Of a DNA stretch of 32,032 nt, positions 2,956 through 15,844 are shown in pieces. Origin of the DNA: Hyphobacterium sp. (GTDB lineage Bacteria > Pseudomonadota > Alphaproteobacteria > Caulobacterales > Maricaulaceae); NCBI GenBank assembly GCA_021604625.1, contig BQJI01000006.1, positions 1 through 32,032 on the forward strand. The letters run 5' to 3'. How positions within the stretch are numbered: position 1 is the first letter of the stretch; each line of letters opens with the position of its first letter. The notes beneath the pieces are model-generated. The model made no database searches. It had not been told where the DNA came from and was given only the letters and a program-made list of their open reading frames with translations. Both the position numbers and the translations under genes were made by a program.

Positions 2956-3480
2956 ATGTCCAGAGTCAAAGGTCGGCCAAGCCGGCGATCATTTCTGCGC
3001 ACCGTTGTAGGCGGCGCAGCTCTCTCGGGGGCGACCTCCATCATCAATGGCGCGCCCGCACAAGTCCGGACCTGGAGCGCCAATGAGGCAGCATGCGCGT
3101 CCGGTGTGACCGACAGTGATCGCGGGGCGGAAGCCGATCCGGCGGGCAATGGGCGCGGTACGGGTGTGACTGATTCTGACAGCGGCGAGAGCGCGGACCG
3201 CGGCGGATACGGGCAAGGCACAGGCGTCAGCGATGAGGATTCGGGTGAAACCGCAGATCGCGCCGGATATGGCAGCGGGCCGCGCGCCGTAACCGATCGC
3301 GATCACGGTGCCCATGCCGATCCGGTGGGGGAAGGTCGCGGGCGCGAACGCCATACGGATACAGATGTCGGTTTTGGGTCAGACCCCATCGGGCGCGGAG
3401 CAGGCGAAAACCGCCGTCGTCCCGGCTCCTATCGTCCTTGCCGACAGGAACCCGCTGGCACGGATGAGGGCGATCAATGA
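2956..3480 (+). CDS. Tat-exported protein with about 20-aa tandem repeats, unknown function
   Basis: Within ORF 2773..3480; start at 2956 (MSRVKGRPSRRSFLRTVVGGAALSG) chosen because it gives a twin-arginine signal (SRRSFLR). Repeats of GVTDSDxGxxADxxGxGxGT. Confidence 0.65.
   Translation: MSRVKGRPSRRSFLRTVVGGAALSGATSIINGAPAQVRTWSANEAACASGVTDSDRGAEADPAGNGRGTGVTDSDSGESADRGGYGQGTGVSDEDSGETADRAGYGSGPRAVTDRDHGAHADPVGEGRGRERHTDTDVGFGSDPIGRGAGENRRRPGSYRPCRQEPAGTDEGDQ
3103..3411 (+). repeat. Coding tandem repeat, about 60-bp period, 4-5 degenerate units
   Basis: Units: GVTDSDRGAEADPAGNGRGT / GVTDSDSGESADRGGYGQGT / GVSDEDSGETADRAGYGSGPR / AVTDRDHGAHADPVGEGRGRER / HTDTDVGFGSDPIGRGAGENR. Confidence 0.85.
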
Positions 3481-4616
3481 GTGAGGTCCGGGAATTCGAC
3501 CCCGGCCTGTCGGAAATCACAGCCCCTGCCGCCGCGCGGCTGGAAGGCATCGACTTTGCTCGCGCCGTCGCTTTTCTCGGCATGATGATGGTGAATTTCC
3601 ACATCTACATACATAACGCCGATACGGATCCTGTCTGGGCCACCCAGCTTGCCAGCCTGTTTTCCGGGCGAGCCGCGGCAACATTCGTCTTCATCGCCGG
3701 TGTCGGCACCGCCCTTCTGACGGCGCGATGGCGGAGAACACGTGATCAGACCGACCGGCGGTCTGCGCGGCTTTCACTGCTTAAGCGGGGCCTGTTTCTC
3801 TTCATTGTCGGCGTTTCGTTCCGGGCACAATGGCCCTATGATATCCTGCATTTCTATGGTGCTTACCTGGCGCTGGCGGCACTGGTTTTCACTCTGTCGG
3901 CGCGCTGGATCATCCTGCTCGCCATCCTGACGGCGTGCGGCTTTGTCGCGCTCTATCTCGCTCTGCCGCCTTTGACCGGCATTGACTACTGGGAGAGCCC
4001 CGGCTTTGACGCGCCGGGGGCAGCCATCCGCGATGTATTCTTCACCGGGCATCACCCGGTTTTCCCGTGGTTTGCTTTCTTTTTGGCAGGGCTGGCCGTG
4101 GGACGGATCGATCTGCATAAACCGGCCAATCAATGGCGGCTCCTGATCGGCGGCGTCGTGCTTATCTCACTCGCCAAAGCGATCAAGTTCGCGGCTCTGG
4201 ATCTGAATTATGTGAAGCTGATGCCGGTCGAGGAATGGGGATTTGCCCTGCCTTATATCGCCGATCTGTTGGGCTCCTCCGCCTATCCGCCGACACCGAT
4301 ATACGTGATGTTCGGCCTCGGTGTCGGGCTCATTGTCCTCTCGCTGTCGCTGATGCTTTGCGCCTCGGAATCGCGGCGCAAATTGGTTCAGCCGGTCATC
4401 CATGCCGGACAAATGGCATTGACGCTCTATCTCGGTCACGTCTTCATCGGCGTCACCGGAATTGAATGGTTTTTGCCCCGTGAAATGGAATCAACCTTCT
4501 GGCTCTATGGTATCGTCATCGCTTTCTTCATCGCGTCGGTAGTCTTCGCGACGTTATGGCGGACGCACTTCAAACGAGGACCGGTTGAATGGGCGATGCG
4601 AAGACTGGTGGATTGA
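3477..4616 (+). CDS. DUF418/YeiB-like multi-pass membrane protein
   Basis: 379 aa; N-terminal RLEGIDFARAVAFLGMMMVNF, many hydrophobic segments, C-terminal LWRTHFKRGPVEWAMRRLVD typical of DUF418. Overlaps upstream stop by 4 bp (ATGA). Confidence 0.85.
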   Translation: MSEVREFDPGLSEITAPAAARLEGIDFARAVAFLGMMMVNFHIYIHNADTDPVWATQLASLFSGRAAATFVFIAGVGTALLTARWRRTRDQTDRRSARLSLLKRGLFLFIVGVSFRAQWPYDILHFYGAYLALAALVFTLSARWIILLAILTACGFVALYLALPPLTGIDYWESPGFDAPGAAIRDVFFTGHHPVFPWFAFFLAGLAVGRIDLHKPANQWRLLIGGVVLISLAKAIKFAALDLNYVKLMPVEEWGFALPYIADLLGSSAYPPTPIYVMFGLGVGLIVLSLSLMLCASESRRKLVQPVIHAGQMALTLYLGHVFIGVTGIEWFLPREMESTFWLYGIVIAFFIASVVFATLWRTHFKRGPVEWAMRRLVD

Positions 4617-5182
4617 TAGCGGCGTTTCGCTTTCCCGACGCCCGTGCGTGGACGGAAGCGGCCATTCTCTTCATGATCTTCGCAGGGCTTGCCGCGCTCA
4701 TCGGCATTGGTAGCGGATTGTTCGAGGATTCTCCGCACTTCGATACTTCGCTTTTGGTCACCGCTGTGGTGGCCGTTTTTATCCCGGCAATGGGTGAAGA
4801 GCTGGTCTTTCGGGTATGGTTGCTGCCTTGGCCGGCTGGACTTGCCATCCCTCCTTCGAGGCCGACTACGTCGGCACCTCAGGATGAGGTTGAAGGTAAG
4901 TTTTCCAACCCACCTCATGCTGAGGTGCGAGCGAAAGCGAGCCTCGAAGCACGTCTGCTATTTATTCTCCCCAGCCTCGCTCTTTTCGTCCTCTGGCATC
5001 CGGTTCAGGTCTGGCTCGGATTGCCATTGGCGCAGGCCGTGTTTCTTGACTGGCGATTTCTGATTACCGCCGCTTTGCTGGGCATTGCCTGCACGATCAG
5101 CTGGCAAAGATCCGGCTCGATCTGGCCCGCGATCGCGATCCATTGGGCAGCAGTCGTCGGATGGAAAGCGCTGCTCGCCTAG
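4589..5182 (+). CDS. CPBP family (CAAX/Abi-type) intramembrane protease-like protein
   Basis: 197 aa; motif GEELVFRVWLLP and second motif LFVLWHPVQVW, C-terminal SGSIWPAIAIHWAAVVGWKALL. Interrupted in frame by a 96-bp palindromic element. Confidence 0.75.
   Translation: MGDAKTGGLIAAFRFPDARAWTEAAILFMIFAGLAALIGIGSGLFEDSPHFDTSLLVTAVVAVFIPAMGEELVFRVWLLPWPAGLAIPPSRPTTSAPQDEVEGKFSNPPHAEVRAKASLEARLLFILPSLALFVLWHPVQVWLGLPLAQAVFLDWRFLITAALLGIACTISWQRSGSIWPAIAIHWAAVVGWKALLA
4854..4949 (+). repeat. Palindromic repeat-like element (REP/RPE-like) inserted in frame in the CPBP gene
   Basis: 8-bp terminal inverted repeats CTTCGAGG (4854-4861) / CCTCGAAG (4942-4949); internal perfect hairpins GCCGAC-tac-GTCGGC (4861-4875), ACCTCA-gga-TGAGGT (4876-4890), ACCTCA-tgc-TGAGGT (4912-4926). 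Length 96 bp = 32 codons. Confidence 0.8.
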
Positions 5183-6050: not shown

Positions 6051-7259
6051 CTAAATCGTGCCCGTAATCCAGCCGCCGCCGAGAACGCGATCCCCGCCAT
6101 CGGCAGGTGAATAGAAGACCGCCGCCTGTCCGGGGGCAACGCCTTCTTCGCCTTCATCGAGCAACAGGCTGGCCTTGCCGTGCGTCATCTGCATCACCGC
6201 AGGAACTGGCGGGCGGGTCGAACGCACCTTCACCAGAATGGGCGCGCCGTCATGCGCGGCGAAATCACCTTCGCCGAGCCAGTTGACCTCGTGCAGTCTG
6301 ATTTCCTTCACCGTCAGCGCTTCGCGCGGACCGACAATGACCTGGCGTTGGTCCGGATTGAGTTTCACCACATAGAGCGGTTCGCCGGTGGCGATGCCGA
6401 GCCCGCGTCTCTGCCCCACGGTAAAGCGCAATACACCGGAATGCGTACCCATGACGCGGCCATCAATGTGAATGACATCGCCGGGCTCGGACGCGCCGGG
6501 GCGCAGTTTTTCAACGATATCGGCATAATTACCATCCGGCACAAAGCAAATGTCCTGACTGTCCGGCTTGTCGGCAATGGCCAGACCAAAGGCCTCGGCC
6601 AATGCGCGGGTCTGATCCTTGTTGAGCGAGCCCAGGGGAAAGCGCAGATAATCGAGCTGTTCTGCCGTTGTGGCGAACAGAAAATAGGATTGATCCTTGC
6701 CCGGATCGGCCGCGCGACGAAGCTCTGCCCCGTTCGGGCCGTCAACGCGCTGGATATAATGCCCGGTTGCCATGCAGGCCGCGCCCAATTGCTTGGCCTG
6801 TTTGAGGAGATCGGCAAATTTCACGCGCTCATTGCAACGCACGCAGGGGATGGGGGTGAATCCGGCGAGATAGGTGTCGGCGAACTCGTCCATCACCGCT
6901 TCCTTGAAGCGGCTTTCATAGTCGAGCACATAATGCGGGAAACCCATTTCCTCGGCGGCGCGGCGGGCATCATAGATGTCCTGCCCGGCACAGCACGCAC
7001 CCTTCTTCTTGATGGCCGCGCCGTGATCGTAAAGCTGGAGGGTGACCCCCACCACGTCATAGCCGGCCTTGTGAAGCAGGGCGGCCGTCACGGTGGAATC
7101 CACCCCGCCCGACATGGCCACAACCACGCGGTGATCGGACGGCTTGCCGCCCAGACCCAATATGTCTCCATCGAGACCGAATTCACGGATGAGGGTATCG
7201 GCGCGGCTATCGCGCGCGCGCGTCAAAGTCGTCGTCATATGCGTCTCCCACGGGGTCAA
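6051..7259 (-). CDS. mnmA: tRNA-specific 2-thiouridylase MnmA
   Basis: 402 aa; PP-loop [70 protein letters not shown]. Start may be the internal ATG at 7238 ([11 protein letters not shown]). Confidence 0.96.
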
Positions 7260-15456: not shown

Positions 15457-15550
15457 ACGGCGTTTAGGTGGAATTTAAGAGCCTTGGCGTATGTTCATCT
15501 CAACAAGGGCGACAAAGAGCGCCTGACGGGTGAACTTAAGGGTGGTGGAA

Positions 15551-15844
15551 ATGCAAGCTCGGCTTCGTAAGGAAAACTATGTCATTGGTCCGGACGGAAG
15601 TCCGCTGACTCTGGCAGATTTACCAAATCCTTCAACAAAACGATGGGTTATCCGCCGCAAGGCTGAAGTGGTCGCCGCCGTGCGCGGCGGTCTTTTGTCT
15701 CTGGAAGAGGCATGTGAGCGTTATCGCCTCACCGTTGAAGAGTTTCTTGGCTGGCAGCGGTCAATCGACAAGCACGGTCTGGCCGGATTGCGTACCACGC
15801 GCATCCAGCATTATCGGGCCAAGCCCGACCCATTGGGCGTCTGA
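15551..15844 (+). CDS. sciP: CtrA inhibitor SciP (DUF1153)
   Basis: ENYVIGPDGSPLTLADLPNPSTKRWVIRRKAEVVAAVRGGLLSLEEACERYRLTVEEFLGWQRSIDKHGLAGLRTTRIQHYR; ORF may alternatively start at GTG 15530. Confidence 0.92.
   Translation: MQARLRKENYVIGPDGSPLTLADLPNPSTKRWVIRRKAEVVAAVRGGLLSLEEACERYRLTVEEFLGWQRSIDKHGLAGLRTTRIQHYRAKPDPLGV

Follow-up and report, generated by a model that had tools for sequence, protein, structure and literature searches.

An in-frame copy of a dispersed palindromic element in a CPBP-type protease gene of Hyphobacterium

In-frame palindromic elements in bacterial genes have been described above all from Rickettsia and Wolbachia (PMC3767692, PMC10969869), and intragenic REPs have been catalogued in some other bacteria. 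Among the latter is the CGTC-tagged super-family (Di Nocera et al. 2013, PMC3733652), whose CGTC-1 family comprises Neisseria dRS3 and RPE-6. The same paper describes CGTC REPs with intragenic copies and no dedicated transposase, and two Xanthomonas species whose recB genes carry different REPs at roughly one site. Published precedents thus exist both for in-frame palindromes and for different repeats at one site. The case presented here comes from a relative of Maricaulis.

The window, i.e., the whole 32,032-nucleotide stretch of Hyphobacterium sp. contig BQJI01000006.1 that we analysed, contains a palindromic element within a gene for a CPBP-type membrane protease. Our main reading, to which we assign a probability of about 85%, is that a copy of a dispersed family (here called family A) has inserted in this gene and been retained in a tolerant loop, with the function of the host protein probably persisting. 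The genome itself (G000) is a draft of 2.36 Mb in 271 contigs.

Structure and borders of the element

The element has the following parts:

About 4850-4953, no strand: whole palindromic element, a family A head-to-head dimer, counting the CCTC and CACG tags at its ends (conservation over 78 unit ends)
4854-4862, plus strand: left terminal inverted repeat CTTCGAGGC, 9 bp (inverted-repeat detection)
4861-4875, plus strand: variable hairpin of the left unit, GCCGAC-TAC-GTCGGC, with arms that covary among copies
4876-4890, plus strand: core hairpin of the left unit, ACCTCA-GGA-TGAGGT (inverted- and direct-repeat detection)
4891-4911, plus strand: variable spacer separating the two units, differing in length and sequence across 28 copies
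4912-4926, plus strand: core hairpin of the right unit, ACCTCA-TGC-TGAGGT (direct- and inverted-repeat detection)
4927-4942, plus strand: variable stretch of the right unit, GCTCGC subtype, a direct and not an inverted repeat (sequence and arm analysis)
4941-4949, plus strand: right terminal inverted repeat GCCTCGAAG, 9 bp (inverted-repeat detection)

The initial annotation had described a 96-bp segment with 8-bp inverted repeats at its ends and three hairpins, two of them with common ACCTCA/TGAGGT arms. All three hairpins were recovered, as were the inverted-repeat ends, which measure 9 bp. The segment 4854-4949 has a fold energy of -54 kcal/mol on either strand; shuffled sequences give about -27 (z about -8).

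Aligned copies and the unit-end profile define the family A unit as CGTS-CTTCGAGGC-(variable hairpin)-GCACCTCA-NNN-TGAGG, mostly paired head to head around a variable spacer. Conservation continues for four more bases on each side of 4854-4949, this being the CGTS/CCTC tag at positions -5 to -2, and the profile (n = 78) holds 0.7-1.5 bits at positions -5 to -1 and <0.25 further out. Judged from this profile, the borders would lie at about 4850 and 4953, giving 104 bp. The earlier figure of exactly 96 bp, or 32 codons, is thus right for the core and not necessarily for the inserted length. Since the first base of the core is the second base of a codon, approximately 33-35 residues are changed, and since 104 is not a multiple of three, a base must have been gained or lost at the target or in the tags.

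Family A across genomes

A BLAST-type search of G000 returned 36 family A matches at approximately 20 places; the genome has about 21 elements, and the relative G007 has 30. Matches are found in all eight genus members and in several other genera of the host's family. The exact pattern TTCGAGG-N6-28-CCTCANNNTGAGG occurs as 31 units in G000 and 53 in G007, and the reversed control pattern gives 0. Over 58 distinct arms of the variable hairpin, 5.03 of the 6 pairs are complementary, compared with a mean of 3.86 and a maximum of 4.19 in 2000 arm shuffles.

Of the 51 elements that G000 and G007 have together, 42 are intergenic, six overlap predicted gene ends, and the remaining three lie within predicted genes, namely the G000 protease gene and thiC in both genomes. 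Where both neighbouring genes were called, these are mainly convergent or unidirectional, divergent pairs making up 2 of 41. The gene calls used for placement are home-made and approximate, based on a hexamer coding model trained on long open reading frames (ORFs) of these loci; a first model based on codon usage was too weak and was dropped. ORFs found mechanically to span elements were rejected as proof of intragenic copies, because in this GC-rich genome most of them are noncoding by hexamer score. Nor did we rely on the single reading frame of all intragenic copies as a sign of selection on the peptide, since there are few independent events and, on each strand, roughly two of the three frames run open through the core in any case. 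The intergenic placement agrees with the REP distribution given in PMC3733652. The expectation of a dispersed, normally intergenic family is therefore borne out, and its converse, a single-copy element with no related palindromes, does not hold.

Further afield, a wider family A pattern occurs in 37 of 385 sampled alphaproteobacterial genomes, with at most 151 units per genome and one control match in the survey. Some of these genomes (G366, G440, G514, G437, G385 and others) have 87-151 exact units, mostly of the TTCGAGAC variant, and most others have none. Searching Rfam with the window gave no family at the gathering threshold, and none at E <= 1 near the element. Literature searches on the element core and the encoded peptides yielded no paper on family A, and we found no name for the family there or in Rfam.

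Movement of the family is deduced from its copy number, as we found no transposase. RAYT proteins (Y1_Tnp, PF01797) were considered as the mover and rejected, because none of the eight genus genomes has one; the same search was positive in 5 of 14 control genomes. This agrees with the CGTC REPs of PMC3733652, which have no dedicated transposase. The event in the window would then be a mobile-element insertion, in which a non-coding, non-autonomous family A dimer entered the protease coding sequence, presumably moved by some enzyme that may be foreign-encoded.

The host protein and its loop in relatives

The host gene and its neighbours in the window are as follows:

3477-4616, plus strand: upstream DUF418/HGSNAT-like membrane protein gene, which also adjoins the host gene in G001 and G004 (Pfam, synteny)
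4589-5182, plus strand: host gene, an Rce1-like/CPBP intramembrane protease homologue of 197 aa (ORF, Pfam)
6051-7259, minus strand: downstream syntenic marker, which we take to be mnmA (translated ORF, synteny)

Elsewhere in the window, a 104-aa ORF among flagellar genes (15530-15844, plus strand) appears to resemble the SciP/DUF1153 regulator of the CtrA circuit.

The host ORF starts within the upstream DUF418 gene and continues without interruption over its 197 aa, insert included. Residues 54-188 match PF02517 (Rce1-like; E 8.6e-13) with 48.8 bits, against a cut-off of 22.4, and the EExxR motif and both histidine motifs are there. EELVFR lies upstream of the insert and WHPVQ downstream, so the initial annotation was correct in placing an in-frame, stop-free insert between the two catalytic motifs. 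Sequence and fold searches of the PDB with the host protease gave no significant match.

For comparison, we aligned the protein with orthologues from the family and order, the named records belonging to Maricaulis, Oceanicaulis, Ponticaulis and related alphaproteobacteria. The invariant residues E70, E71, F74, R75, W136, H137, P138 and H185 are all retained, and the protein deviates at 1 of 27 strongly conserved columns, the mean for all orthologues being 1.26. An AlphaFold2 model built from 35 sequences has a mean pLDDT of 85, mostly >90 in the core. It places residues ~81-110 in an unstructured loop (pLDDT about 60) between two helices, with the insert's end lengthening the helix that follows. 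The insert is hydrophilic (GRAVY -1.0) and its flanks are hydrophobic (+0.95 and +1.2). The protein would thus have gained a hydrophilic, disordered peptide of ~33-35 residues between the EExxR helix and the WHPVQ-motif helix, which may have been kept because the net change preserved the frame, the frame used is free of stops through the element, and the position is a loop.

In the alignment, every examined orthologue from outside the genus has a short loop, with no insert, from EE(L/M)VFR to the WHPVQ helix, and the window's own loop minus 32 residues equals the G023 loop in length. The added residues are therefore not shared by many genera.

Within the genus, DUF418 was found in all eight genomes. 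In G001 and G004 the protease gene still follows DUF418, and mnmA lies beyond the pair. After DUF418, the protease gene is absent from G002, G003, G005 and G007, and the G006 contig ends there; an empty allele of the gene is thus to be had at close range from none of these five near relatives. The gene is dispensable, as the sister species that lack it show. Among the four protease-less congeners (loci L111, L113, L114 and L117), three have DUF418 followed directly by mnmA. The G007 mnmA and thiC genes (L111, L178) match only piecewise, with frame changes or in-frame TGA codons, which suggests an indel-rich assembly for that genome.

These absences bear on whether the insertion inactivated the protease or is eroding it, so that the gene is on its way to being lost as in the sister species. 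The lower hexamer coding score of the protease gene relative to its neighbours points the same way. However, the intact ORF, the full set of invariant residues, the lack of excess changes in conserved columns and the confidently predicted core fold with the insert in a loop all argue against inactivation, as does the insert-bearing gene of G001 and G004, for which dN/dS is ~0.25 outside the insert. On sequence comparison, the gene is under purifying selection in these two species, and we consider inactivation in the window quite unlikely. The initial annotation had allowed for either a tolerated loop or inactivation, and the dN/dS value, the modelled loop and the single changed column favour the former. 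We infer from sequence and model that the function of the host protein persists despite the insert, noting that neither the Rce1 match nor the own-lineage selection estimate, whose synonymous sites are near saturation, is proof of protease activity.

The insert of G001 and G004 is a different palindrome in the same loop, 69 bp or exactly 23 codons long. The G004 form is CGTC-ATTCCCGC-GAAG-GCGGGAAT-CCA-spacer-TGG-ACCCCGGC-TTCC-GCCGGGGT-GACG. It has every feature of CGTC-1 REPs as defined in the text of PMC3733652: a CGTC tag, an 8-bp stem beginning with AT, a 4-base loop, a CCA tail and head-to-head dimer arrangement. Searches with this dimer gave 36 matches in G001, 21 in G004 and none in G000 at E <= 0.001. 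Among two dozen sampled CGTC loci, coding in one frame on both sides was seen in the protease copies only. The spacer of the protease-loop copy is common to G001 and G004 and those of other copies differ, which indicates a single, vertically inherited insertion. A CGTC-1-type dimer unrelated to family A has entered this loop in two congeners, and its presence there indicates that the loop is permissive.

A palindrome therefore occupies this loop in all three congeners that keep the gene, and the genus ancestor may already have had a CGTC dimer there, which family A then replaced by nested insertion plus deletion or by recombination between palindromes. Such a replacement would accord with the shared origin of the CGTC insert in G001 and G004, and with the downstream borders of both inserts, each 6-7 residues ahead of the point where the SL[AI] helix starts. 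The upstream borders, however, are about seven codons apart, no CGTC remnant is seen beside the family A element, and the CGTC dimer is unmatched in G000 at the threshold above. We regard replacement as possible but less probable than not by a good measure. The same comparison makes a false join by the assembler extremely improbable: palindromic repeats can mislead assemblers and G000 is a 271-contig draft, but the gene is continuous through the insert, and in the two other assemblies that keep the DUF418-protease order the loop also contains a palindrome, an independent one.

Another question is whether the hairpins have been domesticated, with transcript structure slowing translation or setting mRNA stability. 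The very stable fold would suit this, and so would the comparison of G004 with G001, where synonymous changes affect 2 of 21 sites in the CGTC element and 45.5 of 124 in the rest of the gene (Fisher p ~0.02, on small counts), and one stem pair of the element is compensatory. The scarcity of synonymous changes could reflect hairpin constraint, but gene conversion between copies would produce the same pattern, the data are one pairwise comparison, and the window's own element has no comparable orthologue pair. Domestication consequently seems to us rather improbable.

ThiC provides a second host protein. Its C-terminal linker, after the CxxCxxxxC motif, has in-frame family A units in five species: one unit each in G000 (L203), G006 (L233) and G007 (L178), three in G019 (L209), which belongs to another genus, and in G002 (L219) a dimer of the TTCGTGG subtype, likewise in frame. 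The ThiC linkers of G003 and G005 are short and have no family A units. The reading frames that yield the linker peptides (PHPEVRANASLEG, PSR...PQDEG) are those used in the window too (PSRPTTSAPQDEV, PHAEVRAKASLEA). In G002, another TTCGTGG-subtype palindrome closely follows the thiC stop codon (L219), beside the in-frame dimer. The G007 ORF at L178 had been a candidate spurious ORF; that view was rejected, as the ORF proved to be the end of thiC, family A unit included.

These cases are best read as non-autonomous palindromes that now and then enter a tolerant loop and stay there if their length and frame permit. A stronger proposal is that unrelated palindromes dock repeatedly in certain loops or linkers, such as the CPBP loop and the C-terminal linker of ThiC, and that their hairpins then come under selection as nucleotide sequence; we think this unlikely, but were it true, palindromes would be a continuing source of loop peptides with a role at the mRNA level. 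The natural series of empty loop, element A and element B can be used to test whether such inserts are neutral or useful.

Comparison with described palindromic elements

RPEs (especially RPE-4 and RPE-6) and the Wolbachia palindromic elements are also palindromic, multicopy and ~100-150 bp long, with some in-frame copies at exposed regions. The element in the window behaves similarly, being a multicopy palindrome with at least one in-frame copy in a recognisable gene whose examined orthologues outside the genus are all short-looped. The comparison with Rickettsia that was drawn at the outset is thus apt as a behavioural one. However, family A copies are nearly all intergenic, and their host is akin to free-living, Maricaulis-type marine bacteria and is not an obligate intracellular one. 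We therefore liken the element to RPEs and REPs by behaviour and do not file it as an RPE by sequence.

Whereas the insert of G001 and G004 fits the CGTC-1 definition, the window's own element differs in stem, loop and tail: it has a CGTS/CCTC-like tag and a longer, two-hairpin unit, with no AT start and no CCA tail. By its sequence, it belongs to none of the four CGTC families listed and defined in the text of PMC3733652. It shares with REPINs and GTAG REPs the head-to-head pairing of short palindromes and the intergenic dispersal, but not the GTAG tag, and its genus lacks the Y1_Tnp proteins by which RAYT-mobilised REPINs are moved.

To these known systems, the present case adds three things: the insert belongs to a widespread alphaproteobacterial family of palindromes that is apparently unnamed, sister species have two unrelated palindrome families in one protein loop, and ThiC is a second target.
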